The position numbers and the translations under genes are program-made. Of a DNA stretch of 64,000 bases, positions 51,968 through 64,000 are shown one piece after another. Numbering within the stretch: position 1 is the stretch's first letter; every line of letters begins with the position of its first letter. The stretch is from a virus: positions 186,001 through 250,000 of the IMG/VR virus record IMGVR_UViG_3300005289_000016; one strand, written 5' to 3'. A model generated the notes under the pieces. The model had not been told where the DNA came from and did no database searches. It saw only the letters and a program-made list of their open reading frames with translations.

Positions 51968-52348
51968 ATGTCTCAAGTAATGACCGTAAACCAGATCCGC
52001 ATCCAACTGGCTGTCCGTACCGCATGGGAAGACAAGATCCATGGTGGCGTATCGAAATGCATGCAACAGATCAGCGCAAGCTTTGCTCGCAAGATCAAAG
52101 GTGAAAGCGACATGACCTTCCGCCATAAGGCGCTGGGTGAGATCGTCAAACGCCTGAATATCAACAGCATCCCTAAGGACGCCAAGCATGCCTTGGCTGC
52201 CCTGGATGTCTGCGACAAGCTGCCACGTGAAATCATCGGCAACAAGCTCGATGGTATCGCGTTCAACAGCGACGAGATGGCCATGAAGCTGGCTGACATC
52301 GCCTGGGAAGAAGGCGCTAAGCACGGCCTCGAACCACACGTCTACTAA
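51968..52348 (+). CDS. Unknown helical protein
   Basis: 126 residues with TAGGAGTCGCAAC before the ATG. Basic middle portion (SFARKIKGESDMTFRHKALGEIVKRL) and acidic end; no known motif. Same unit as the gene at 52360. Confidence 0.82.
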   Translation: MSQVMTVNQIRIQLAVRTAWEDKIHGGVSKCMQQISASFARKIKGESDMTFRHKALGEIVKRLNINSIPKDAKHALAALDVCDKLPREIIGNKLDGIAFNSDEMAMKLADIAWEEGAKHGLEPHVY

Positions 52349-52628: not shown

Positions 52629-53369
52629 ATGAAACCAGAACGCTTGATCGTAGAGTGCCGAGGCAATCAAATCGGTCTCGAAGAACGCCTCCTCATGCAG
52701 CATGCTGAGGCCCACGACATCCCGGTGAAGATCTATTACGAGAAGCACATGGCTCGTAACCAGATCCCACTGTCATCCACTGATCTGGTAGCGGGGAGTG
52801 TCCCTTTCATCAAGCATGCATTGCGTCAGTTCGGAAAGGAATTGCCTCCTGAGGATTCTTACCCTGAATGTTTGCACCATCACCTGCACCGAAAGGTTGC
52901 AAAGATGGATACGCTGCGAGATGCAAAGAACCTGATCGACGATGTCGGCTCGCACTTTGTTAAACCCGTCACCCTGAAACGTTTCACAGGCTTTGTCACC
53001 TGCGACTCCATGGACCCTCGATTCAATGGGGCGTCGGATAAAATGCCAGTGTGGGTAGGTAAGGTAGTTGAGTTCGTCAGCGAATGGCGATGCTACGTGG
53101 CTAACGGTTGCCTGCTCGATATACGTTTTGCCGATCATGGCGGGGATCGTAAGATCAAGCCTAACCGCGGCATCATCCTAGATGCTGTACGTGACCTGAC
53201 AGAGTGCGCAGCGCCTGCCGGTTACGCGGTGGACTTCGGTGTACTGTCTACTGGGCAGACTGCTCTGGTTGAACTCAACGATGGATTCTCCATCGGTGCG
53301 TACGATGGCATTGAACCTGGCATCTATTGGGAAGTCATCCAAGCCCGTTGGCAAGAGCTGATTGGCTAA
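52629..53369 (+). CDS. ATP-grasp enzyme, R2K-clade-like (DUF4343 type)
   Basis: 246 residues. After an N-terminal 100-residue part, the ATP-grasp core is visible: HFVKPVTLKRFTGFV (about 116-130, lysine binding ATP), VWVGKVVEFVSEWRCYVANGCLLDIRF (about 147-173, with the conserved Arg) and AVDFGVLSTGQTALVELNDGFSIGAY (about 200-225, metal-binding Asp and Glu-x-Asn-Asp). This matches the R2K clade of ATP-grasp proteins, predicted to add groups to proteins or peptides by carboxylate-amine ligation. It stands alone on the plus strand, but shares a terminator with the minus-strand modification operon. Confidence 0.8.
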   Translation: MKPERLIVECRGNQIGLEERLLMQHAEAHDIPVKIYYEKHMARNQIPLSSTDLVAGSVPFIKHALRQFGKELPPEDSYPECLHHHLHRKVAKMDTLRDAKNLIDDVGSHFVKPVTLKRFTGFVTCDSMDPRFNGASDKMPVWVGKVVEFVSEWRCYVANGCLLDIRFADHGGDRKIKPNRGIILDAVRDLTECAAPAGYAVDFGVLSTGQTALVELNDGFSIGAYDGIEPGIYWEVIQARWQELIG

Positions 53370-53370
53370 G

Positions 53371-53424
53371 CGGCATAAGAGGGAGCCCTAGGGCTCCCTC
53401 TCACGTCTTTCTTTTTTCTTTGTT
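53371..53424. terminator. Bidirectional terminator, end of modification operon
   Basis: CGGCATAA then a perfect 22-base palindrome GAGGGAGCCCTAGGGCTCCCTC (53379-53400), then TTTTTTCTTTGTT (53412-53424). Shared by the ATP-grasp gene and the endolysin gene. Confidence 0.92.
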
Positions 53425-54148
53425 ACGCCACCCGAAGGTTGTTCGGGTGCAGGCCGTCCACGTACTTCTGAGCCACCTTGGCAGCAGCTTCAGCTTTGGT
53501 GATCAGACCATCGCGGTTGGCATCCAGGCCCTTGTTCTGAAGGTAGGCCTTGGTCTTGGTGTTCGCTTCACTGAACAGCACGTAGTCTTCAGGCTTGCCC
53601 ACAGCAGTAGGTAGAAGTATCCTCATGTAGATGTCACTGAGGGTCTTCAACTTGCCAGTGTACGGCTTGAAGAAGTTGTAGACGTAGTCGAGTTGTTGCT
53701 CGGCAGTCATCTTCAGCAACGCAGGGAGCGAGGTCTTCGAATCCTTCGCTGCCGCAGCGCCGAACTGAATCAGACCGTAGTACGGAGCACCTGCACCGTT
53801 GGCCACGGTAGGACTGAAGGTACCACCGGTCTCGAACGCCATGCAAGACATCAGCGTATCGGTACCGTCCCATGGCAAGGCCAGATCGGTAGCGATCTTG
53901 TTGGTCTTGCGCAGGAACTCATCGGAGACCTTGGCAGACCACGCAGGAGCCTTGCAGTAAGCGAACAGGGTCGCATTGATACCATCGGCAGCCGTCGATG
54001 GCTTCGACATGTTCACGGCCTTACGGCGAGCGTTCAGGAAGGCACCGTGGGATGCCCCACCCCAGATACCGTCGATGACGCCAGCGTAGAAACCCAGCGC
54101 TTTGAGGTTACGCTGAAGTTCCTTCAGTTGTTCTTTAGTTGCCGCCAT
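53423..54148 (-). CDS. Endolysin with peptidoglycan-binding domain and EF-hand-like loop
   Basis: 241 residues. Residues 4-45 (LKELQRNLKALGFYAGVIDGIWG) match a peptidoglycan_binding_1 repeat. Residues 95-190 carry CMAFETGGTFSP with probable catalytic Glu106 and APYYGLIQF, like lysozyme/transglycosylase-type endolysins, and a conserved LKTLSDIYMRIL ... EDYVLF end. Residues 209-220 (DANRDGLITKAE) form an EF-hand-type Ca-binding loop. No signal peptide, so a holin must release it. Last gene of the minus-strand operon; it is about 49 kb from the spanin pair. Confidence 0.87.
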   Translation of the reverse strand: MAATKEQLKELQRNLKALGFYAGVIDGIWGGASHGAFLNARRKAVNMSKPSTAADGINATLFAYCKAPAWSAKVSDEFLRKTNKIATDLALPWDGTDTLMSCMAFETGGTFSPTVANGAGAPYYGLIQFGAAAAKDSKTSLPALLKMTAEQQLDYVYNFFKPYTGKLKTLSDIYMRILLPTAVGKPEDYVLFSEANTKTKAYLQNKGLDANRDGLITKAEAAAKVAQKYVDGLHPNNLRVA

Positions 54149-54782
54149 TGTTGATACCCTCGAGGTAGGCTTGCATGGCCGGGTAGCAGTCCCGGAGTTT
54201 GGCGAAGGAGTAGTTGCTCATCTGCGCCTGGATCATCTGGTCATCACGACCCGTCAGACGCCAGTCAAAGCGAAGACCTTCTTGCACCAGAGTCAGAGGG
54301 GTGTTGGCACCGGCCTCGTACTTGGTGATGTGGACCGCGTTGGCGTAATCCCACGGCGACTTCTGTAGCAGACGCCATGCCGCAGAGCTGGCCACTTGTT
54401 CCGCCGATTCCTGAGCAAAGGACAGCAGGGACATTGGCTCAGCCAGCACCTTGTTGTTCAGGAAGTCGTTGACGATGGCATCTTCAAGGTACAGCAGCTT
54501 AGGCGTGATGGTGCCCTTGGTGCGGAAGTACAGCTTGGTGATACCTGGACGCTGGCGAGGGATGTACGGTTGAACATCACCGCCCAGATGCGGAGCAGGT
54601 TGACCTTCTGGCCACCATTCGATGGTGTAGCCGACGATGGCGTATTGCAGATCGCTCAGGTAGTTGAAGACAGTGGCGTCTTTGATGCGGCAGTTGGCAC
54701 GCAGTTGCACACCGGAGTTGTCCAGCAGGCGAATGGTGCGGAAGTGACCGCGGTCCGGACCTGTGTAGAGTTCGTCAGCCAT
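54135..54782 (-). CDS. Unknown protein between endolysin and oxygenases
   Basis: 215 residues; its 3' end overlaps the endolysin start by 14 bases. Beta-rich first half, helical second half (DQMIQAQMSNYSFAKLRDCYPAMQAYLEGI). No motif recognised. Within a modification operon it might be a substrate or a structural protein. Confidence 0.8.
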   Translation of the reverse strand: MADELYTGPDRGHFRTIRLLDNSGVQLRANCRIKDATVFNYLSDLQYAIVGYTIEWWPEGQPAPHLGGDVQPYIPRQRPGITKLYFRTKGTITPKLLYLEDAIVNDFLNNKVLAEPMSLLSFAQESAEQVASSAAWRLLQKSPWDYANAVHITKYEAGANTPLTLVQEGLRFDWRLTGRDDQMIQAQMSNYSFAKLRDCYPAMQAYLEGINNGGN

Positions 54783-54784
54783 GG

Positions 54785-55336
54785 TTACGCCTTGAAGTGG
54801 AAGTCATTGATCAGCGACAACCGCAGTTGCGCAGGGTTAGCAGCAACGCTGTGCTGGATGTAGCTCGGCATCAGCCACAAGTCACCAGCTTTCGGCGAGA
54901 TGTAGTGTTCGCCGAAGTGCGAGTCACGCACAGCACGCGGATAACCACGCGATGCATTGAAACGCGGGTCGATTAGCGACATGCCGGCTTGGGAATCTTC
55001 CGGGTAGTACACACTGGTCAGGCAGGAGTTGCCATGTAGGTGTGCACTCAGACCTTCCTGATGATCGAAGGCCTTGCCGAAGGTGTCGATCATGACTTCT
55101 TTCGGCATGACGTTGAAGATCTTCTGGATGTAGTCTTCGGCCACAGGACGCAGGATCACGTCACGGAAGTGAGTCAGGGCCGGGAACATCTCAGGGGTGA
55201 TTTCCAGCGGAGTCTGCGAGTTCCGAGGGGACATGCAGTGCAGCTGATGGATCTCATCAATGAGGGCCGCGTTATCCACTTGGTCCAGCAGATTGACGTG
55301 ACCGATCTCGATTTTCCATGGTTGGAAGAGTTTCAT
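54785..55336 (-). CDS. 2OG-Fe(II) oxygenase, copy 1
   Basis: 183 residues. Jelly-roll oxygenase pattern: H99-x-H101 (SAHLHGNS), TSVYYP strand, IDPRF, then PKAGDLWLMPSYIQHSV with His162 and LRLSL with Arg172 for 2-oxoglutarate. This is the layout of the small TIGR02466/PF13759-type hydroxylases, which act on protein or small-molecule substrates using 2-oxoglutarate and O2. One of three tandem paralogues; substrate unknown. Confidence 0.85.
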   Translation of the reverse strand: MKLFQPWKIEIGHVNLLDQVDNAALIDEIHQLHCMSPRNSQTPLEITPEMFPALTHFRDVILRPVAEDYIQKIFNVMPKEVMIDTFGKAFDHQEGLSAHLHGNSCLTSVYYPEDSQAGMSLIDPRFNASRGYPRAVRDSHFGEHYISPKAGDLWLMPSYIQHSVAANPAQLRLSLINDFHFKA

Positions 55337-55350
55337 TGAACGTCCCTATG

Positions 55351-55908
55351 TCAGTTGGGGTCGAGGAAGTAATCGTTGACGAAGGAGAGGCGTAGCTCAT
55401 CCCGAACGGGGTTAACCGAATGCAGGATGTAACTTGGGATGATGTACACATCCCCAGCCTTAGGCTCGATCCGGTAGTTACCGAAGTGTCCACGACTGAT
55501 GTGGCTTGGATAACCACGAGCAGCATTGCCCCGCGGGTCAACCAAGACCAGACGTGACGCAGCATCAACCGGATACATCACCACAGTCAGACTCGACATA
55601 GCGTGGATGTGATGTTCGAGGTCTGCTCCGTCCTGGATACATACACATTGCGACAAAATGTCGACATCCGCAGCTTCAAGGCTCAGGTCGAACTCAGTGC
55701 GAATGTACTCAAGGACTTTCGGAGTGATGCAGCGATCACGCAGGTCCACCAGATCCGCTACCTCAGGAGCGTTGGGATCAACGGATACGAAGCTGCCGTT
55801 GACTTGCATGCTGTTGGCCAAGATAGCACCAACGATGAGATCAAGGTCCACCTGATCAGCAATGTTGAACTTACCGATGGTGGTGGTCCAAGGTTGGATA
55901 CGTTCCAT
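55351..55908 (-). CDS. 2OG-Fe(II) oxygenase, copy 2
   Basis: 185 residues, same plan: His100-x-His102 (EHHIHAMSS), TVVMYP, VDPRGNAARGYP, PKAGDVYIIPSYILHSV with His163, LRLSF with Arg173. It shares the opening 'W-x-x-x-IG-x-x-N-x-x-DQVD' with copy 1. The substrate-facing N-terminal halves differ, so the three copies may act on different sites. Confidence 0.85.
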   Translation of the reverse strand: MERIQPWTTTIGKFNIADQVDLDLIVGAILANSMQVNGSFVSVDPNAPEVADLVDLRDRCITPKVLEYIRTEFDLSLEAADVDILSQCVCIQDGADLEHHIHAMSSLTVVMYPVDAASRLVLVDPRGNAARGYPSHISRGHFGNYRIEPKAGDVYIIPSYILHSVNPVRDELRLSFVNDYFLDPN

Positions 55909-55910
55909 GG

Positions 55911-56474
55911 TCAGAGATCCGTGATGACGTAGTATTCGTGCAGCAATGAGAGACGGGTAGCCTCGTCGACATTGGGCACACTGTGTTGGACATAGCTCGG
56001 GAAGATCAGCACATCGCCCGCTTTCGGACTGACTTTGAAGTTGGCAAAGTGCGGGCTATTGCGCATGCGCTTGGGATAGCCACGACAAGCATTGCCTTTC
56101 GGGTCGAACATGACCAACGAATTGGTCGAGTCGCTTGGGTAGCAGATGGCAGAGATCACAGAGCCAGGATGGTAGTGCGGAAACAGACCTTGCCCTTCAG
56201 GAATCCACTTGCCGTTGGTGTCGACGTGGAATTCATTGATGTTGAACGCAAAGTGTTCCTTGGCGTACTCCATCACCTTGGGTGTAATGATCCGGTCCCG
56301 CATCTCGAGGATGATCGGGAAGAGTTCCCTGTTCTTGATGACCAGTTGACGATCGTCTTCTCCGTCAGTCATTGCAAACAACGACAGGACTTCATCAGCA
56401 TACGCTGCCATGTCGAACTGATCGGCTACGTTGAACCGCACCAATGGAACAGACCACAGGTTGAGTGTTTCCAT
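55911..56474 (-). CDS. 2OG-Fe(II) oxygenase, copy 3
   Basis: 187 residues: His100-x-His102 (FPHYHPGS), SAICYP, FDPKGNACRGYP, PKAGDVLIFPSYVQHSV with His164, TRLSL with Arg174. Two bases from copy 2 and from the upstream gene, so all are co-transcribed. Confidence 0.85.
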   Translation of the reverse strand: METLNLWSVPLVRFNVADQFDMAAYADEVLSLFAMTDGEDDRQLVIKNRELFPIILEMRDRIITPKVMEYAKEHFAFNINEFHVDTNGKWIPEGQGLFPHYHPGSVISAICYPSDSTNSLVMFDPKGNACRGYPKRMRNSPHFANFKVSPKAGDVLIFPSYVQHSVPNVDEATRLSLLHEYYVITDL

Positions 56475-56476
56475 GG

Positions 56477-56905
56477 TTACTCCGTGAGGGATGCGATCCC
56501 TTCCTCAGTGCACTCGAGCAGACAGTACTTGACCGACTTGGGAGCCCAGCCGCCTTTGATCCAGTCCGGCATGTCTTTCAACCGTTTTAAGATCGCTTCG
56601 TACGTTTCTGGATCGCAACTGTACGGGACGAAGTACGGGTCCTGATTAAGGAACAGGTCCTTGTCGTCGAGGATGGTCCGAACAGGCAGGTTGTAGAGAT
56701 CACACAGCGTGAAGGCGTAGATGATGGCCACGGCGTAACTCTTAGCCGGGTACACCAACGGGAATTCAGCCTTCTGGAAGTACGCCAAGGCGTTCTCTAC
56801 TAGCTCACCACTTTCGACGAACTCCATCAGGGAGAAATCGTCAGTGTGCTCGGTGACCAGCAGATTATAGAGCTGCTGGTATTCTTTATAAGGGAGAGTG
56901 TGCAT
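56477..56905 (-). CDS. Unknown small protein in the modification operon
   Basis: 142 residues from the second of two adjacent ATGs, its start lying inside the 3' end of the radical SAM gene upstream. Acidic and aromatic; two Cys near the ends of the second half (VKYCLLEC). No motif recognised. Candidate accessory or carrier protein. Confidence 0.78.
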   Translation of the reverse strand: MHTLPYKEYQQLYNLLVTEHTDDFSLMEFVESGELVENALAYFQKAEFPLVYPAKSYAVAIIYAFTLCDLYNLPVRTILDDKDLFLNQDPYFVPYSCDPETYEAILKRLKDMPDWIKGGWAPKSVKYCLLECTEEGIASLTE

Positions 56906-57950
56906 CATGTTCCTCTTTGGTCATCAGATCCCAGCGGTTCTTCATGTCGATGAGGCATTTTTCAGAACCCGTTTCTTCCATCAGGCGCTGAACGTCACAC
57001 CGTGAACAACTATCGAGGAAACAGCAGTCGCCACACTCAGGATGTGCACTGTATTTCTCAAGGTTACGGTAGTACGCTTCTTGCCGGTCTGCGATCACAG
57101 CTTCGGCAGTCCACGGCTTTGCCAGCTTGAAGTTGTCTTTGTAGATGGTGAGGTTCTCTACCAACACAATGGTCGAATAGAGGGAGCCGCCACGGTAGGT
57201 GAATTCATACCCTTCCTTGTTGCCTGGAATCAATGGTACAAATTCAACGGTATTCACACGCTCTTTTGCAAAGTCAGCGAATACCTTCAGATCTCGCTTG
57301 AACCGCTCGGCATTCATGATGTTGTCGAAGCCTTGGCGGGCTGCCACAAAGGGGAACTCAATCACCTTGTGGATACCTTCGCCGAAGTCCATGTAGCGGA
57401 TCTTCTTGAACGCCTCGTCGCTGAAGTGAGCAAGGTTACCTTCCTCGACGTTGATGGTGGCATACAGGCGACTGAACTCTGCTTTCTTCATCATGCCTTT
57501 GAATCGCGCAAGGCGATCCTTGAGGATGGCGACGTATTTGTCGTTGCAGATATTCTTCAAGGTGATGGGTGTGCCAACGTTGACATACTTGCCGGGCATC
57601 AACTCATCCATCAACTCAGCGACTTCTTCCAGATGGCGATCATGGAGCATCGCCATGTTGATCGTCAGCACTTTAAAGTGAGCAGCGATCTTGCGAAACG
57701 ATGGGTGGCGCAATACCTGAAACCCGTTGTCCGCACTGGTAATGTCGGTCGGCCCTAACTTGAGTTCCAGCAGACGGAAGTCGTGGGCTTTCAAGTCTTC
57801 GAGCAACGCTTCCAAATCAGCCGTGTCTTCATCAGACATGTCGAAGGGAGCGAAGTTCTTCTCGACAGTACAGCCGGGGCAGCTATAGCCACACCCCTTG
57901 AGGACTTCCAGACCCAAGTTAAAGGTCTGGGATACACGTTCACTGAACAT
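56886..57950 (-). CDS. Radical SAM protein with SPASM-like C-terminus, GPTD type (a)
   Basis: 354 residues. CxxxCxxC cluster site at residues 20-27 (GCGYSCPGC). After the first strand it reads LKLGPTD (about 63-69), where other radical SAM enzymes have GGEP. The C-terminal part has CGDCCFLDSCSRC, a set of Cys expected of a SPASM/twitch auxiliary Fe-S cluster. Such enzymes cut SAM to a 5'-deoxyadenosyl radical and modify peptide or protein residues. Overlaps the neighbour by 11 bases. Paralogue of 57940. Confidence 0.87.
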   Translation of the reverse strand: MFSERVSQTFNLGLEVLKGCGYSCPGCTVEKNFAPFDMSDEDTADLEALLEDLKAHDFRLLELKLGPTDITSADNGFQVLRHPSFRKIAAHFKVLTINMAMLHDRHLEEVAELMDELMPGKYVNVGTPITLKNICNDKYVAILKDRLARFKGMMKKAEFSRLYATINVEEGNLAHFSDEAFKKIRYMDFGEGIHKVIEFPFVAARQGFDNIMNAERFKRDLKVFADFAKERVNTVEFVPLIPGNKEGYEFTYRGGSLYSTIVLVENLTIYKDNFKLAKPWTAEAVIADRQEAYYRNLEKYSAHPECGDCCFLDSCSRCDVQRLMEETGSEKCLIDMKNRWDLMTKEEHDAHSPL

Positions 57951-58968
57951 ACTGCAACCCCACTAGGCAGTCTTTGATTGACATGTGTTGCATGATCGCG
58001 CTGATGCCCTTCTCAGAGCAGCTACTGATGTAGGGGCACGTCATACAGGGCGTGTCCTTCAAGTACTCCAGAGACGCATCCAGAGCCTTCTGACGCACTG
58101 TCAAGAGGTTCTCCATGGTCCATGGCTTAGGGATGGTGAACTCGTCGTCTAGGAACGGGCAATCATCCTTCAAGAAAGGCACCCAGTACAGCTTACCGTC
58201 GGTGTACAGCAAGTTGCACATGGTCCCAGTGTCATAATGCAGGTCTGGGTTACGTCGACGTTCATCCTGACCTTCAAGCTCAGAGTAGTACTGCGTGATG
58301 CGGTAACTCATGCGCTTGATCTGCTCACTCACCATCAGGGTCTTTTGTTTAACCCGACCGTAAGGGATGTTCAGGATGTCATCTTTGTCCACAGGGAACT
58401 CAACGTCAAACCCAGCCCGCATGAACTCCTCGAACTTGTCGTCCACGGTGTCCTGCGTGCAACTGATAACAAAGCCAGCCTCATTCAAGTACGCCGATTG
58501 CATGGTGTTCTTGATGTGGGAAAGCTTCTTACCCACCATGTTGCCGAACTTCTCATTGCGGAAGAAGTACGGCGCAGCAGGGATCAGGAAGCGGATAGGC
58601 TTACCTGGCACTGATTGATCGATCTCAGCACACATACTCGTGTACTTGTCCATGTTCGTCTCAAGGAACGCTGCGTTGAACGTCACCTGATGGAACATCT
58701 GAGCCATCTCTTGGAACTCAGGATGGGCCATGACCTCATCTTTGTTGCTGGCAGTCATGTAGTCGGTAGGGCCGACACCCAGATCGAACGCCACGTAACC
58801 TGCTGTGGTCATTTCCGTCAGCAGGTCCTTCAGGGCAGCGAGGTCATTGACATCACCGCCCATGGCCTTGTCGATCATGCATCCGGGACAGACGTGTCCG
58901 CACCCTCGGAATAGATCAAGCGTGATTTCCAGCCGCTGTCTGTGCTGGACGAAGTGTGGAGATTCCAT
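57940..58968 (-). CDS. Radical SAM protein, GPTD type (b)
   Basis: 342 residues. Cluster site GCGHVCPGC at about residues 22-30, LGVGPTDYMTA (about 63-72), and a Cys-rich C-terminus PCMTCPYISSC. It must start at the ATG at 58968, because the next Met lies beyond the cluster site; so it overlaps the upstream radical SAM gene by 94 bases. Similar to 56886 along its length, but with many differences in the middle region. Confidence 0.87.
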   Translation of the reverse strand: MESPHFVQHRQRLEITLDLFRGCGHVCPGCMIDKAMGGDVNDLAALKDLLTEMTTAGYVAFDLGVGPTDYMTASNKDEVMAHPEFQEMAQMFHQVTFNAAFLETNMDKYTSMCAEIDQSVPGKPIRFLIPAAPYFFRNEKFGNMVGKKLSHIKNTMQSAYLNEAGFVISCTQDTVDDKFEEFMRAGFDVEFPVDKDDILNIPYGRVKQKTLMVSEQIKRMSYRITQYYSELEGQDERRRNPDLHYDTGTMCNLLYTDGKLYWVPFLKDDCPFLDDEFTIPKPWTMENLLTVRQKALDASLEYLKDTPCMTCPYISSCSEKGISAIMQHMSIKDCLVGLQYVQ

Positions 58969-59879
58969 TGGTCAAGTAACCCCTTGAAGCCGTTACAGGA
59001 GTGAGTCAGATCTTTCACCTCCCGAAGATGCTCAGAGAGGCAGTGACCCATGTAGTTACAGGAAGAGCAGTGACCATTGGTCGTGACTGCTTCTTTTTCT
59101 TTGGCACACCACGCAAGGTAACCAGCAACGCCATCCACATCGAGGAAGAACTCGTTGTCATTGGCATCGAACTCAAGCACAGCCAGAGAGCCCGTCGGTG
59201 TGATGTAGAGGTGATCGTCACTGAAGGCATTACGCGTACCTTCAGCCGCCTCTTTCACTTGCCGCTCATTCTCAAAGTAGAACTCTCGCTCAGGGTGTTC
59301 AATGACAGCCCAGACGAAACGCTCAAACTCATCAAACGGCACGTTCTGGGCATTGGCCTGGTTCGTGCTGTAGGGTTTGATCTCGACGTCCTTTGCATTG
59401 GCCAGCATGTTCATGGTCTGCACGAACGTATCGACGCTCACGGTGTCCAGGAACTTGCGAGAGGCCAACGTCAGGATGGTGAAGGGACGCGTCAGCATGA
59501 AAAGGTTGTTCAACACCCGGTCATGCATCTCCCGTGCTTCAAAGTCATACGACACGCTGAGGTCGAAGTCCAAGTCCTCGGTGATCTCGTTGAGCAACGT
59601 GAGGTTCGAGACCAACACGATATCATCCAGACCGTACCGGTGCAGGATCTCTTTCATCTCCAGCAGGTACTCGGGAGGCAACAGCAGGACTTCCCCACCG
59701 TAGATGTCGATGTGCCCAACGTCATAGTGCTCAAGGATCTCCAGCAGCCTTTCTTCAAAGACGCCCAAGTCCATGCGTGTCCGATCACCCAACTGCTCTG
59801 GTGTGAGATAACAGAACTCACAGCGCAGGTTACAGTAGTAAGACGGGTTTACGCTGAGGTTGATTTTTGGCTTAGGCAT
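58875..59879 (-). CDS. Radical SAM/SPASM-like protein
   Basis: 334 residues. Cluster site YYCNLRCEFC at about 15-23, GGEVLLL (about 61-67) as the SAM-binding GGE motif, and a C-terminal CSSCNYMGHCLSEHLR for auxiliary Fe-S. The last ~30 residues are Ser-rich and lie in the region that codes in another frame for the start of the next enzyme. Standard anaerobic-sulfatase/peptide-maturase type plan. Confidence 0.87.
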   Translation of the reverse strand: MPKPKINLSVNPSYYCNLRCEFCYLTPEQLGDRTRMDLGVFEERLLEILEHYDVGHIDIYGGEVLLLPPEYLLEMKEILHRYGLDDIVLVSNLTLLNEITEDLDFDLSVSYDFEAREMHDRVLNNLFMLTRPFTILTLASRKFLDTVSVDTFVQTMNMLANAKDVEIKPYSTNQANAQNVPFDEFERFVWAVIEHPEREFYFENERQVKEAAEGTRNAFSDDHLYITPTGSLAVLEFDANDNEFFLDVDGVAGYLAWCAKEKEAVTTNGHCSSCNYMGHCLSEHLREVKDLTHSCNGFKGLLDQWNLHTSSSTDSGWKSRLIYSEGADTSVPDA

Positions 59880-60091
59880 TTGATAAGTTCTCGCTGGTAG
59901 GGATTCAATGGAACTCCCATGGAATCCTTCATTACATCGAGGAAGTCATCCACGTTCTCGGTGCACCGTTTGATGACGACCTTCTTCAAGACCTCAGGGA
60001 TCTGAAGCTTGAGTTCGTAGCCCGGTGGGAAGAAAGCCATTTGATCGACGATCATGGTCAAGTCCTCAGAGAATCGTGGAACCACTTTCAA
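59849..60091 (-). CDS. Small unknown protein, possible precursor or carrier
   Basis: 80 residues (MKVVPRFSEDLTMIVDQMAFFPPGYELKL...), overlapping the radical SAM gene downstream by 31 bases and the small gene upstream by 26. Mixed hydrophobic and acidic with two separated Cys. Small genes overlapping radical SAM genes are often precursor peptides or recognition elements, but no leader/core split is evident. Confidence 0.7.
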   Translation of the reverse strand: MKVVPRFSEDLTMIVDQMAFFPPGYELKLQIPEVLKKVVIKRCTENVDDFLDVMKDSMGVPLNPYQRELIKCLSQKSTSA

Positions 60092-60272
60092 CTGACTTGG
60101 AATGTTTCATAGCCAGTTCATGGATGCTCTTGCGCAGGTCAACTTCGAAGTCGGCAAAGCCCACCGACGTCATGGTCAGTCCACGAGCCACCAGCTGACG
60201 TATGATCGCTTCGCCTTCCCGCTCGAGGGTGGTGGTAAGTTCTTTCTTCAGTTGTTCATGACCGTATTTCAT
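60066..60272 (-). CDS. Small unknown helical protein
   Basis: 68 residues (MKYGHEQLKKELTTTLEREGEAIIRQLVARGL...). Helical and charged in the first half. Its start is two bases after the stop of the radical SAM gene at 60275. Could bind a partner enzyme or be a substrate. Confidence 0.72.
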   Translation of the reverse strand: MKYGHEQLKKELTTTLEREGEAIIRQLVARGLTMTSVGFADFEVDLRKSIHELAMKHSKSVESGSTIL

Positions 60273-60274
60273 GG

Positions 60275-61363
60275 TTAGCCTTTCGCGATGAGTTGGACAG
60301 ATTCGTCCACGTAAGGTGTTGGGATCAGGTATTCAGTCTGACCGTTCAATTCAATGATGCGAGGAGCCAGCGTCTTCATCTTCTTGCAATGATGTTCAGC
60401 CAGACCCAGTCGTTTAGTGTCAGCCACCGTCTTACGGCAACCGTTGCACACAGGGAACATCGGACACTCGTTACAGGCGTCCTTCATCGACCACAGTTCT
60501 TCCTGATTGCGCAGTGGAGTGAAGAACTCACCCGCCATCTCTTTCTCGAAGTCGATGGGGTACTTGAGGTCGTCACCAAAGGCTCCACAGGAGAAATACT
60601 GGTTGCCCGGTTGCAGACTGCGGATACCGCCATCGCAATCACGGGACAGAGGGCAGATGGTGTTCTGCGTCGACAGGCGCTTGACCAATTGCTTGGTGTT
60701 GAACTCCCACTGCATGAGACCAGCGTCGTAGATTTCAAGGTACTTCTCGTACATGTCAGCCTGAGTGTACATGGTCTCAGCGTTGCCCATGGAGACGCCC
60801 TTGTTGAGCACCACAGGACCAGAAGCTACCGCGTAGTTAACCTTGGCCTCTACGCCCATCCGCTGAGCCAGACGCACCGTGTCAAGGACCGTGTGCTCAT
60901 TGCTCTTATCGACGACTGCAATGAAGTCAGGACGATAGCCAATGCGCTCAAGGAACAGATCACTGACTGCCCAGAACTCTTCTTCAGTGAACGGCGTCTT
61001 ATCGCCCTTGAGGCGTGCATCGCCGTACTGGAACGAGGTCGTCACACCCAGACGTGGATGACGGAACAACTCTTCCCACATCTCAGGCTTCTTGTAGAAA
61101 GGCCAGAGGTTGCTGGTGAAGGAGATCGACGCATCGGACTCCAGACGGTCTAGGATCGCGATCAGGTCCCAGTAATACTGCACAGGCATCATGAGAGGGT
61201 CACCGCCGTTAACGATGATGGTGCGCGTCTCAGGGTACCGTACGATGAACCGTTCCACATCCTCCAGACTCACGACCTCATTGGCGTCATCGGTCAGGTA
61301 GGTGCTGGAGCAAAAGGTGCACTTGAAGTTACACCGCTGCGTCGGCTTTAGGATCAGGTCCAT
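60275..61363 (-). CDS. Radical SAM/SPASM-like protein
   Basis: 362 residues from the ATG at 61363, with AAGGGGAAC upstream. Cluster site RCNFKCTFC (about 10-17), NGGDPL SAM motif (about 51-56), a central CPLSRDC, then FSCGAFGD and a typical SPASM end CNECPMFPVCNGCRK (about 312-326). Because of the seven-Cys pattern this is the member closest to classical SPASM peptide maturases. Its start overlaps the tiny gene upstream by 35 bases. Confidence 0.89.
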   Translation of the reverse strand: MDLILKPTQRCNFKCTFCSSTYLTDDANEVVSLEDVERFIVRYPETRTIIVNGGDPLMMPVQYYWDLIAILDRLESDASISFTSNLWPFYKKPEMWEELFRHPRLGVTTSFQYGDARLKGDKTPFTEEEFWAVSDLFLERIGYRPDFIAVVDKSNEHTVLDTVRLAQRMGVEAKVNYAVASGPVVLNKGVSMGNAETMYTQADMYEKYLEIYDAGLMQWEFNTKQLVKRLSTQNTICPLSRDCDGGIRSLQPGNQYFSCGAFGDDLKYPIDFEKEMAGEFFTPLRNQEELWSMKDACNECPMFPVCNGCRKTVADTKRLGLAEHHCKKMKTLAPRIIELNGQTEYLIPTPYVDESVQLIAKG

Positions 61364-61544
61364 CGGTGTTCCCCTTGTTCTCGTATTTGCCCGTCCAGAC
61401 ACCAAGGTAATCTCGACGGAATTGTTCGTGCTCTGGACTACGCGCTTCCTCTAACTTCTTACGAAGCCAGGTATCGTCACCCAGCTTACGAGGGAACCGA
61501 GGTACACGTGGTAGGCGACGCATTGGTAGGATGGGGTCGGTCAT
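61329..61544 (-). CDS. Small charged protein, candidate precursor peptide
   Basis: 71 residues from the ATG at 61544 with TGGAG eight bases upstream. Basic, Pro/Arg-rich start (MTDPILPMRRLPRVPRFPRKLGDD), helical middle (LRKKLEEARSPEHEQFRRDYLG) and a disordered end (YENKGNTDGPDPKADAAV). It lies directly between two radical SAM genes and overlaps the downstream one. Position and size fit a modification substrate; the sequence has no obvious Cys or repeat core. Confidence 0.72.
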   Translation of the reverse strand: MTDPILPMRRLPRVPRFPRKLGDDTWLRKKLEEARSPEHEQFRRDYLGVWTGKYENKGNTDGPDPKADAAV

Positions 61545-61629
61545 GGATAACACTCCAGATATATTCATAGGAATGTTTGAGTGAAGTTTTAAATAGCGGA
61601 CATAGGGGAGGGACGAGCCCTCCCCGAGT

Positions 61630-62628
61630 CTACAAGACGACTTTGAACATCTCTCGGATAGAGCAGACCTTGGACTTGCTGTCCAAGACCTTGTCGTGCA
61701 GGAAACAACGCAGCCCACACCGGGAGTAGTACTCGCACTCAAAGCAACCGTAATGTTCCACGAATGCAACCTCAGCAGCGTCCTTGGCAATCAAGCCTTC
61801 AGTCTCGTCTAAGATCGCATCCTTACCTGCTTCAGACCAACAGGTACTGATCACGCCATCCTTGTTGATGATCTTGGTGGAGCGACACGTGGTCTCATTG
61901 ATCACGTTGTTCTTCCAGTCCTTGATCGGATACGAGTTCGGGTACTTGTTGTTCAGCGCAATGTACATCGTGCTGATCAGGTCTTCGTCAGGTTGGTGAT
62001 GCAGGTACATCTGACTGGGGATGTAATGATCGAAGTACACATCGTACCGTTCACACATCTCAGCAAACTCCTCGCCTTCTTTACCGTCAAGGAATGTCTG
62101 GATGTTCTGTTTGGTGATCACCACGTTGACCGTCTGGACCAGATCACCCAGCGTCTCGAGGTTCTTGAAGAACAAGGCTCGTTGAGCAGGATTGAATCGA
62201 CCAGCGGGGTCATAAGACGTGGCCAGCCAGACACGCTCATCAATCACCCGAAGGCGTTCGATAAGGTGCCTGACTCGGTCAGTGTTGTGATAAACGAGGT
62301 TCGTGCCAAAGACCAGTTTGATGTGCTTGAAGTGACTCAAGGCCATCTTGCCGGCTTGGTAGTAAGCTTCGAAGAGTTCGTCGCTCACCTCGTTCATGAA
62401 CAGTTCACCGCCTGTGAAGTTAACCACCATGGCTGTGTCTGGATGTGTAGTCGCCAACAACTTAGCAACCTTGTCGATCACTAGATCCCCGTCGAGACCC
62501 ACTTTGGAATCGTGGTCCTGGTGGCAGAATGAGCAGCGCATGTTGCACAGCTCGAACAGAATCAGGTGAGCTTCTTTCCACTTACCTTTCTTCTCACGCA
62601 GGATGTCTACAACAGGGATCAGGTTCAT
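61630..62628 (-). CDS. Radical SAM/SPASM-like protein
   Basis: 332 residues. Cluster site ELCNMRCSFC (about 26-35), FTGGELFM (about 71-78), and a C-terminal GCFECEYYSRCGLRCFL (about 292-308) for auxiliary Fe-S, ending near a last Cys. Start and the upstream stop share bases in TAATG. First radical SAM gene of the transcript within this window. Confidence 0.88.
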   Translation of the reverse strand: MNLIPVVDILREKKGKWKEAHLILFELCNMRCSFCHQDHDSKVGLDGDLVIDKVAKLLATTHPDTAMVVNFTGGELFMNEVSDELFEAYYQAGKMALSHFKHIKLVFGTNLVYHNTDRVRHLIERLRVIDERVWLATSYDPAGRFNPAQRALFFKNLETLGDLVQTVNVVITKQNIQTFLDGKEGEEFAEMCERYDVYFDHYIPSQMYLHHQPDEDLISTMYIALNNKYPNSYPIKDWKNNVINETTCRSTKIINKDGVISTCWSEAGKDAILDETEGLIAKDAAEVAFVEHYGCFECEYYSRCGLRCFLHDKVLDSKSKVCSIREMFKVVL

Positions 62629-63692
62629 TACCAGTTCGCTCCCTTGACGCAGTCCTTCAGGACGTCGACTTGTTCCGACAGGATGTACCGCACGAGGTTC
62701 TCGTCGTACTTGCCGGAGTCAGCGTTAGGCAGAGCCAGACGCTTGGCACCTTTGAACATGGTCAGCACCCGCTGCTTCAACACCTCAGGATCAAGGAGGT
62801 CTTCATCGGACGTGAGCAACTGATAGACCAGTCGAGTACGGCCCGCAGTCGGACCCTCGTCGCAATGATCCAACACGGTGATCAGTTCCAGAAGCAGGCC
62901 CTTGATCCACACGTCCGTTGGCTTGTTGTCGAACAAGTTCGGCTGGAGGAACATGGTGCTGTTCAGGTAGTGGAAGTTCAACGTACCTTCGAACACGCTC
63001 TGCCCATTGAGCAGGGTGTTCATGTCAGCACCGGCGAAGTCCCAGGCTTCCGGGTTGGCGATCTGACGACCCCATACGTCGAGAGCATCGTAGCCGTTGG
63101 CCAGCGCGATGCGACGCAGGATGTTCTTCAGAGTCTTTGGCAGCTTGCCCACACGGTTGTCGGTGAACAGACGCATGATGCGCCATTCCAGCGACAGCGA
63201 GTCTGGGTTTTCAGTAACCAGCTCACCGAACACTTCCTGATGAGGATCTTCGAACGCGAACAGTTCTTGAACGACCTGCTCGTTGATGGTCACTTCGTTC
63301 AGGATGTTGGTGGTCGGCTTGTGCATGTTCAGCAGCGACACCTGGAAGGTAGCCTTCTTGCAGAGCATGATCCAGCGGAACACGTCGATCGTGACGTTAG
63401 GCATTACTGCCTTGACCAACATGGTGTACAGGCGCAGGTAGGTCTGACCGTCGACGTAGACGAACACCTTGTCGTCTTGGCTGAAGATCTTGTCGAACAG
63501 GTCCTTGAACACATCGCCTTCAAGCGCGTCCAGAGACACCGCATAGCCAAGTTGCTCAGAACTCTCCTCGTACTCCGCCGGGTGATACTCAAAGCCCACA
63601 CGTGGACTGATGGTGGCGTACGGAATACGCTTACGTGAGATACGGGATTCGATCTCGACGTAGATTCGGTCACGCAGATGGTACATGTTCAA
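62628..63692 (-). CDS. Unknown protein heading the radical SAM operon
   Basis: 354 residues (a second ATG two codons in is possible). Mainly helical, no Cys-rich motif; contains an FYVDGQTYLRLYTMLVKAV-like segment and an LRRIALANGYDALDVWG region. Coupled to the radical SAM gene downstream and overlapping the partial gene upstream by 23 bases. I do not recognise the family; it may be a substrate or scaffold of the pathway. Confidence 0.82.
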   Translation of the reverse strand: MNMYHLRDRIYVEIESRISRKRIPYATISPRVGFEYHPAEYEESSEQLGYAVSLDALEGDVFKDLFDKIFSQDDKVFVYVDGQTYLRLYTMLVKAVMPNVTIDVFRWIMLCKKATFQVSLLNMHKPTTNILNEVTINEQVVQELFAFEDPHQEVFGELVTENPDSLSLEWRIMRLFTDNRVGKLPKTLKNILRRIALANGYDALDVWGRQIANPEAWDFAGADMNTLLNGQSVFEGTLNFHYLNSTMFLQPNLFDNKPTDVWIKGLLLELITVLDHCDEGPTAGRTRLVYQLLTSDEDLLDPEVLKQRVLTMFKGAKRLALPNADSGKYDENLVRYILSEQVDVLKDCVKGANW

Positions 63693-64000
63693 TCTCCTTG
63701 ACCGTCTTGTTCATCTGCTCAACAAGAGCATTGAACTGTTCAGGGACTTCCTGACCGATCAAGGCCATGAAGAAAGGGTTGTTCTGGTGAGCGAAGAACG
63801 CAAACAGGTTGGCCCCAGCGAAGCAGTATTCGTTGAAGAACAACTTGTTCCAGTTCCAATCGCTCTCTTCGATGCCCATGCAGACCAACGGGAAGTTGTC
63901 ATGAGCAATCAACTTGACGAAGTTCAGACCTACGAGGCCTTCTTCTTCATCTTGCGGGTAGTTCAGGACTTCTGACTTGAGGTCTTCTTTGCACTGGAAG
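63670..64000 (-). CDS. Partial unknown protein at the right edge
   Basis: The frame stays open to the window edge, so 109 C-terminal residues are visible and the start lies outside. Aromatic and acidic (SDWNWNKLFFNEYCFAGANLFAFFAHQNNPFF) and ending EIEHVPSA. Same operon as the downstream gene by a 23-base overlap. Confidence 0.75.
   Translation of the reverse strand, partial: FQCKEDLKSEVLNYPQDEEEGLVGLNFVKLIAHDNFPLVCMGIEESDWNWNKLFFNEYCFAGANLFAFFAHQNNPFFMALIGQEVPEQFNALVEQMNKTVKEIEHVPSA

Follow-up and report, generated by a model that had tools for sequence, protein, structure and literature searches.

Organization of the operon

We analysed a stretch of 64,000 nucleotides (the window) corresponding to bases 186001-250000 of the 276,032-base virus record IMGVR_UViG_3300005289_000016, for an operon of radical S-adenosylmethionine (SAM) enzymes and Fe(II) oxygenases and for a protein encoded among them that we called TAIL. 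The genes are packed on the minus strand from position 53423 to the end of the window and, in extrapolated window coordinates, up to ~70,600, i.e. ~6.6 kb beyond it. Coordinates past 64000 are extrapolated in this way, and the outside part, from the fibre genes to TAIL, corresponds to locus L005:12565-18585 (individual loci are designated by L numbers). Distances between the genes range from -94 to +85 nt. The initial annotation, made from the sequence of the window alone, had described almost gapless genes including three small proteins, and these indeed have 71, 68 and 80 residues.

In the order of transcription, the operon starts with genes for two fibre-like proteins of 796 (68194-70584) and 481 residues (66678-68123), followed by those for a cupin/JmjC oxygenase of 170 residues (66141-66653), the radical SAM enzyme rSAM1 (344 residues, 65105-66139) and TAIL (179 residues, 64564-65103), all of them outside the window. 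The next protein, A280 (280 residues; phrog_20767, E = 1.5e-36), is encoded at 63670-64000 in the window and continues to 64512 outside it. It is followed by B354 (354 residues, 62628-63692), a family conserved in the cluster and present in 52 of the 113 viral loci described below, and by the radical SAM/SPASM enzyme rSAM2 (332 residues, 61630-62628). After a 71-residue open reading frame (ORF) comes rSAM3 (363 residues, 60275-61366), also a radical SAM/SPASM enzyme and the best conserved one, with 54-70% identity in isolates. Beyond ORFs of 68 and 80 residues, the operon codes for rSAM4 (334 residues, 58875-59879), a radical SAM enzyme with a shorter Cys-rich C-terminus, and for two divergent radical SAM proteins, rSAM5a (342 residues, 57940-58968; CGHVCPGC) and rSAM5b (354 residues, 56886-57950; CGYSCPGC). 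The last part comprises p143 (143 residues, 56477-56908; phrog_20737, E = 1e-35), a recurrent partner found in 23 loci, three 2-oxoglutarate (2OG)-Fe(II) oxygenases, a (55911-56474), b (55351-55908) and c (54785-55336), and proteins of 215 and 241 residues.

Families were assigned by Pfam, PHROGs and motif checks, those of rSAM5a and rSAM5b by motif and profile-profile comparison only. Five minus-strand ORFs of the window combine CxxxCxxC with a C-terminal CxxCx5C, and CxxxCxxC is present in all six radical SAM enzymes (rSAM1-4, 5a and 5b) and in nearly all members of their families. Three of the window enzymes match the Pfam Radical_SAM profile PF04055 (E = 1.8e-6, just under the cut-off, 1.1e-11 and 6.3e-9); over the whole operon all of rSAM1-4 do so, rSAM1 and rSAM2 just under the cut-off. 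rSAM5a and rSAM5b have no match in Pfam or NCBIfam; both Cys motifs are kept in 83 of 85 members of the rSAM5 family, and in hhalign comparisons with the four other radical SAM profiles, the two proteins aligned end to end with three, at probabilities of 80-88%. The five radical SAM genes proposed for the window are thus confirmed by Cys motifs in all five, PF04055 in three and hhalign in two. A SPASM-type CxxCx5Cx2-3C motif occurs in 78 of 79, 58 of 60 and 39 of 39 members of the rSAM1, rSAM2 and rSAM3 families, respectively, and in rSAM4 and rSAM5 the SPASM motif CX2CX5CX3C is incomplete, with CxxCx5C alone kept. The three tandem oxygenases also proved to be what had been proposed: all reach the PF13759 gathering score (E = 6e-13, 3e-8 and 3e-10 for a, b and c) and display the HxH...H...R pattern, with HxH and RLS in each. 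The profile searches suggested at the time as a check therefore uphold both enzyme families. phmmer searches against the PDB yielded no match at 0.01 for rSAM1 and weak cupin matches only for the cupin protein.

A Cys-His repeat at the C-terminus of TAIL

The TAIL gene of the operon ends with codons for CHTSCHSNCHCARGRR. Its C-terminus, VICHTSCHSNCHCARGRR, consists of three Cys-His-x-Ser units followed by Arg-Gly-Arg-Arg. Counterparts are encoded after rSAM1 in Pseudomonas phage pPa_SNUABM_DT01 (TICHTSCHTSCHSARGRR), Burkholderia phage FLC6 (TVCHSSCHTSCHGSRGRR), Agrobacterium phage Atu_ph07 (DFCHSSCHASCHNSRSRR) and Sinorhizobium phage Phosso (DYCHTSCHASCHSSRSRR). In all four the motif is at the extreme C-terminus, and their N-terminal parts are highly divergent. 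Tails almost always have three repeat units, rarely two or four. Ser at -13, Ser at -5 and Gly at -3 are found in about nine-tenths of the distinct tails, although the pattern used for the scans below left these positions free. The codons for the fixed residues vary freely (TGT and TGC, all six Arg codons and both Ser sets), and selection therefore acts on the protein; this also rules out that the tail is a DNA-level element.

The body of TAIL is diverse and reaches 364 residues. TAIL bodies fall into clusters of 79, 37 and smaller numbers of sequences that are not linked by BLAST, while the tail persists. An AlphaFold2 model of the TAIL protein of a close relative (L097) has a body with predicted local distance difference test (pLDDT) values above 90 and a flexible end, with ~55 in the last residues. 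The structure has no fold match in the PDB (best E = 0.21), and TAIL matches no NCBIfam family. In BFVD, matches were limited to relatives, including the Atu_ph07 tail protein, whose sequence has little similarity, and to three proteins of another phage. The three other proteins (A0A8S5USJ7, A0A8S5USJ8 and A0A8S5USV2 of Myoviridae sp. ctijX18) have 504-660 residues and share the TAIL body fold. For A280, the AlphaFold2 model of a relative has a pLDDT of 91 and no match in the PDB (best E = 0.79).

The DNA 51 nt past the TAIL stop codon repeats TGCCATTCTAACTGTCAC (extrapolated 64470-64512; L005:12471-12513), hence the A280 ORF starts MSCHSNCHANAGRS. The end of the tail-coding region seems to have been duplicated locally, or the repeat may represent a second CH peptide.

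Linkage of the tail with radical SAM genes

We searched 2.9 million viral contigs with a degenerate DNA pattern that encodes CHxxCHxxCHxxRxRR and found it in at least 119 stretches. Among the matches listed, the motif is the exact C-terminus of a protein in 113 of 119, and 107 of these 113 loci contain radical SAM homologues; the six remaining ones are short or incomplete, or have other cluster genes. Since Cys, His and Arg are imposed by the pattern, we ran control scans with altered versions of it. Against the 119 or more matches of the original, replacing the second His gave none, replacing the third Cys gave a single internal match and replacing Arg(-2) gave six, all internal. In bacterial and archaeal genome contigs, the pattern occurs in 88 stretches. 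It ends a protein in 16 of them, 15 of which have radical SAM neighbours, compared with none of the 72 non-terminal matches. Together, the changed-motif scans and the terminal-versus-internal control in bacterial contigs rule out a chance origin of the tail motif.

The association also holds in reverse. Loci picked by alignment to rSAM1 alone have a tail on the same strand in 74 of 80 cases. As for the other six, three loci are truncated close to the enzyme, the tail is a variant in two (CHTSCHSNCNCNRGRR in L261 and CHSSCHYSCHSSCHGDGPGNGGGV in L258) and it has been lost in one. When rSAM3 was used instead, a tail was found in 60 of 80 loci, many of these loci being incomplete.

We consider it likely that the operon encodes a pathway by which the phage matures a host-recognition protein through modification of its (CHxS)3-RGRR tail. 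The tail might instead stay unmodified and bind a metal (Zn, Fe or Cu) or haem, or form disulphides, the enzymes acting on another target encoded nearby or by the host. Cys/His repeats are good metal ligands as such, the CX3CH arrangement of the tail resembles rare c-type haem variants, and the Ser positions and RGRR need not be targets of enzymes. However, the tail and rSAM1 track each other both ways, in >100 loci and on plasmids, too closely for unrelated traits, which makes this explanation unlikely.

Conservation of the cluster among phages

The recurrent gene order in viral loci is cupin, rSAM1, TAIL, A280, B354, rSAM2, rSAM3 and rSAM4, to which rSAM5 copies, p143 and 2OG genes are often added. 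Within the viral set, the family gene directly before TAIL is rSAM1 in 76 cases and that directly after it is A280 in 81. TAIL thus adjoins rSAM1, as tested in both directions, in the arrangement of ribosomally synthesized and post-translationally modified peptide (RiPP) clusters, where a ribosomal precursor is encoded beside modifying enzymes. In a second layout, several rSAM5 copies come after a tandem pair of short TAIL proteins (L014, L037, L046, L056, L082 and others); L082 and L056 have it together with a cupin-rSAM1 set.

The isolates that carry the system are DT01, FLC6, FLC8, S13, Atu_ph07 and Phosso. TAIL queries from environmental phages matched no named phage, so isolates with the system are few. 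The phages concerned come from no fewer than two widely separated groups. One comprises relatives of phiKZ (the FLC6/Ralstonia phage group; PMC5468394), and another includes Atu_ph07, a neighbour of Rak2-like relatives of T4 (PMC6102473). A neighbourhood comparison, which had also been suggested as a check, thus shows the order of the cluster to be kept in unrelated phages. In the bacterial genome collection, the tail system was mostly found in contigs of metagenome-assembled genomes of Bdellovibrionota (L136, L144, L163, L192, L197, L210, L214 and L221), some of them >200 kb; they may be phage contigs binned with predatory bacteria or be truly cellular. The Thermus phages phiLo and Cumys have a distant radical SAM protein in common with the cluster, but no CH tail.

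Could the enzymes serve other targets, such as host proteins, fibre proteins or phage metabolites, with TAIL one of several structural proteins co-encoded by happenstance? A single tail of 16 residues hardly seems to call for six radical SAM and four oxygenase genes, and the enzyme set varies, with dihydrofolate reductase-like genes in FLC6 and no annotated 2OG oxygenase in Phosso. Nevertheless, the linkage of the tail with the enzymes and its position speak against this. The most constant pair is that of the adjacent rSAM1 and TAIL, and we regard such a coincidence as highly improbable. In Burkholderia phages (L008:18861-20074 and L011), two dihydrofolate reductase-like genes are located within the cluster and possibly code for extra reductases of the pathway.

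Probable location of TAIL in the virion

The block follows fibre genes in the operon, and nine of ten proteins sampled directly upstream of such blocks match tail-fibre families. The TAIL protein of Atu_ph07 is gp170. According to the genome paper of Atu_ph07, most of the virion proteins detected by electrospray ionization tandem mass spectrometry are encoded in coding sequences (CDS) 31-76, 170-215 and 284-329 (PMC6102473). Our numbering agrees with that of the paper at gp181 (baseplate wedge) and gp215 (major capsid). The virion cluster CDS 170-215 therefore starts exactly at TAIL, and the downstream gp164-169, including the enzymes gp165 and gp168, are excluded. Read through gene numbers and a cluster boundary of a published result, this is strong but indirect evidence that TAIL is present in the Atu_ph07 particle. 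Among the targets guessed initially, namely virion proteins, host proteins or a phage peptide, the evidence favours virion proteins, the likely substrate being the 179-residue TAIL encoded just outside the window.

These data also bear on the possibility that the cluster makes a released peptide, i.e. a RiPP-like bacteriocin, a signal or a cofactor, and that the TAIL body is removed as a large leader. RiPP clusters likewise have a precursor gene adjacent to radical SAM genes, and in the model the tail is predicted to be a short flexible end on a folded protein. Against this, TAIL follows fibre genes and opens the virion-protein cluster of Atu_ph07, and its body, long and diverse, is unlike a leader. 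Moreover, no protease or transporter was seen among the recurrent cluster genes in a search that was not exhaustive. A released product is very unlikely on these grounds.

Relation to known systems

Typical reactions of radical SAM/SPASM enzymes are the formation of thioether or carbon crosslinks and the oxidation of Cys or Ser. The nearest models of rSAM1 are radical SAM/SPASM maturases, yet the best score is 51 bits where 349 are needed. In maturation systems of this type (anaerobic sulfatase maturase, PapB, YhhB, DynA, FxsB and RiPP systems), as in the phage cluster, the enzyme gene is beside that of a protein with a short Cys-containing segment. The phage system differs from them in having several different enzymes per locus and, as proposed substrate, a phage structural protein without recognized leader, protease or exporter. 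The His-Xaa-Ser (HxsABCD) system comprises two radical SAM enzymes and a protein rich in His-x-Ser, and the phage tail reads H-x-S three times. In contrast, the HxsB and HxsC models give at most 27 bits where 268-370 are needed, TAIL has no NCBIfam match and the phage units are Cys-His-x-Ser. None of the cluster enzymes reached a curated cut-off of the named NCBIfam radical SAM maturase families, and assignment of the cluster to a known RiPP or maturase family was rejected, as no NCBIfam cut-off was reached.

JmjC-type oxygenases hydroxylate His and Arg. The known ribosomal oxygenases among them (YcfD, MINA53 and NO66) modify protein Arg or His, residues that are fixed in the phage tail. The phage cupin protein, a candidate oxygenase of the tail, matches JmjC_2 (E = 1.5e-9), but it is much smaller than these proteins.

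Single genes named radical SAM, cupin or 2OG oxygenase are mentioned in reports on FLC6, S13, RP12/RP31 and pelagimyophages (PMC8066314, PMC11898562, PMC5468394 and PMC7029224). In the open PubMed Central literature, we found no description of the system, nor any report that connects these genes with one another or assigns them a substrate or pathway, which agrees with the initial statement that no described phage pathway of such make-up was known. Within that literature, the kinds of enzymes were thus already known, and the class of substrate and the setting are new.

A counterpart on Pseudomonas megaplasmids

A tblastn search with rSAM3 matched 136 plasmids, nearly all of Pseudomonas. The two that we examined (L222 and L223) have a type IV pilus operon, three radical SAM genes, a gene for an exported-looking protein of 124 residues and further radical SAM genes. 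The 124-residue protein (L222:13672-14046, L223:11477-11851), encoded in 129 plasmid records, ends with GYCHSACHGACHGACHGARGWR or GYCHNACHGACHGACHGSRGWR, that is four CHxx units and RGWR in the pattern CHxACHGACHGACHGxRGWR. The enzyme encoded directly upstream scores 155 bits with the phage rSAM1 profile (E = 2e-45), compared with 86 bits for the best NCBIfam model.

Like the phages, these pBT2436-like/pQBR megaplasmids have an rSAM1-like enzyme directly upstream of a (CHxA)n...RGWR protein, beside an adhesion organelle. Unlike in the phages, the carrier is an exported-looking protein of 124 residues rather than a virion protein, it has four units and the RGWR ending, and no cupin or 2OG gene was seen in the plasmid stretch examined. 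The RGWR ending of plasmid type was not found in viral contigs. The conserved pilus and radical SAM block of these plasmids has been reported with an unclear role (PMC7070040, PMC4989453 and PMC13391042), and the matching passages of those papers do not mention the tail motif. At the level of sequence, the CH repeat is tied to rSAM1-type enzymes in two kinds of mobile elements, each time beside an organelle that touches cells.

Genes outside the conserved set

The initial annotation saw in the cluster a pathway of several enzymes that modify a peptide or protein. This part is supported, and the cluster is conserved in relatives. It had also grouped the small ORFs and a nearby R2K-like ATP-grasp gene with these enzymes, and these additions are restricted to near relatives or, for the 68-residue ORF, found nowhere else. 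The 71-residue ORF (61329-61544) occurs only in one near relative and the 80-residue ORF (59849-60091) only in two, and no relative of the 68-residue ORF (60066-60272) was found. We rejected all three as precursors: they have no Cys/His repeat, two are barely conserved and one is not conserved at all.

The R2K ATP-grasp gene (52629-53369, plus strand; PF18299, E = 9e-29) is the convergent neighbour of the operon and lies, as first described, across a shared terminator, the hairpin AGAGGGAGCC-CTAG-GGCTCCCTCT at 53379-53402, with a T run on the plus side. This hairpin was read from the sequence and is not among the listings of the consensus scan. Among the loci of relatives that we compared, only that of the near relative DT01 has the R2K ATP-grasp gene and those for the 215-residue (54135-54782) and 241-residue (53423-54148) proteins, and we therefore rejected the three as parts of the pathway. 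The 215-residue protein is probably not part of it, and the 241-residue protein probably has a virion or lysis function instead. The latter has a peptidoglycan-binding start, a region matching phrog_196 (baseplate-hub-like) and a match to phrog_4928. Further along the window, a 126-residue ORF at 51968-52348 has a weak match to DUF924 (E = 2e-4, below the cut-off).

Proposed pathway and its meaning

In the maturation pathway that we propose, rSAM1, encoded immediately upstream of TAIL, would act on the tail most directly. rSAM2-4, the rSAM5 copies where present, and the JmjC/cupin and 2OG oxygenases might further alter the Cys, His, Ser and Arg residues of the tail, for example by crosslinking, oxidation or hydroxylation. 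A280, B354 and p143 perhaps guide the enzymes. The finished tail would sit at the host-recognition end of the virion, where it might bind a metal, or bind or react with a group on the host surface.

Several observations weigh against this proposal. Modification of the tail is a prediction, and the presence of TAIL in Atu_ph07 virions was read from a cluster boundary. We identified no leader peptide, protease or known peptide-recognition domain. L259 (7056-8003) codes for a homologue of the TAIL body beside rSAM1 without the Cys/His repeat and represents a natural test of dependence, and the protein of L258 ends differently from the standard tail. The loci with paired short TAIL proteins mostly have rSAM5 copies in the stretch examined, and rSAM1 is perhaps not universal. 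Finally, phages that differ in the number of enzymes have much the same tail, so that not every enzyme need act on it.

A broader view, for which we see about even chances, is that unrelated tailed phages build a multiply modified (CHxS)3-RGRR structure on a host-attachment protein by radical SAM and Fe(II) oxygenase chemistry and that such structures are also formed by Pseudomonas megaplasmids, next to their type IV pilus, as a shared device for contact between mobile elements and cells. If the proposal is true, a radical SAM pathway would, as far as the literature searched shows, be known for the first time to complete the maturation of a viral structural protein. It would provide a substrate for a gene family (phrog_1802 and relatives) whose members have so far been met singly in numerous phage genomes. 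The radical SAM block that is conserved on clinically important Pseudomonas resistance megaplasmids, and has been puzzling so far, would also be explained.

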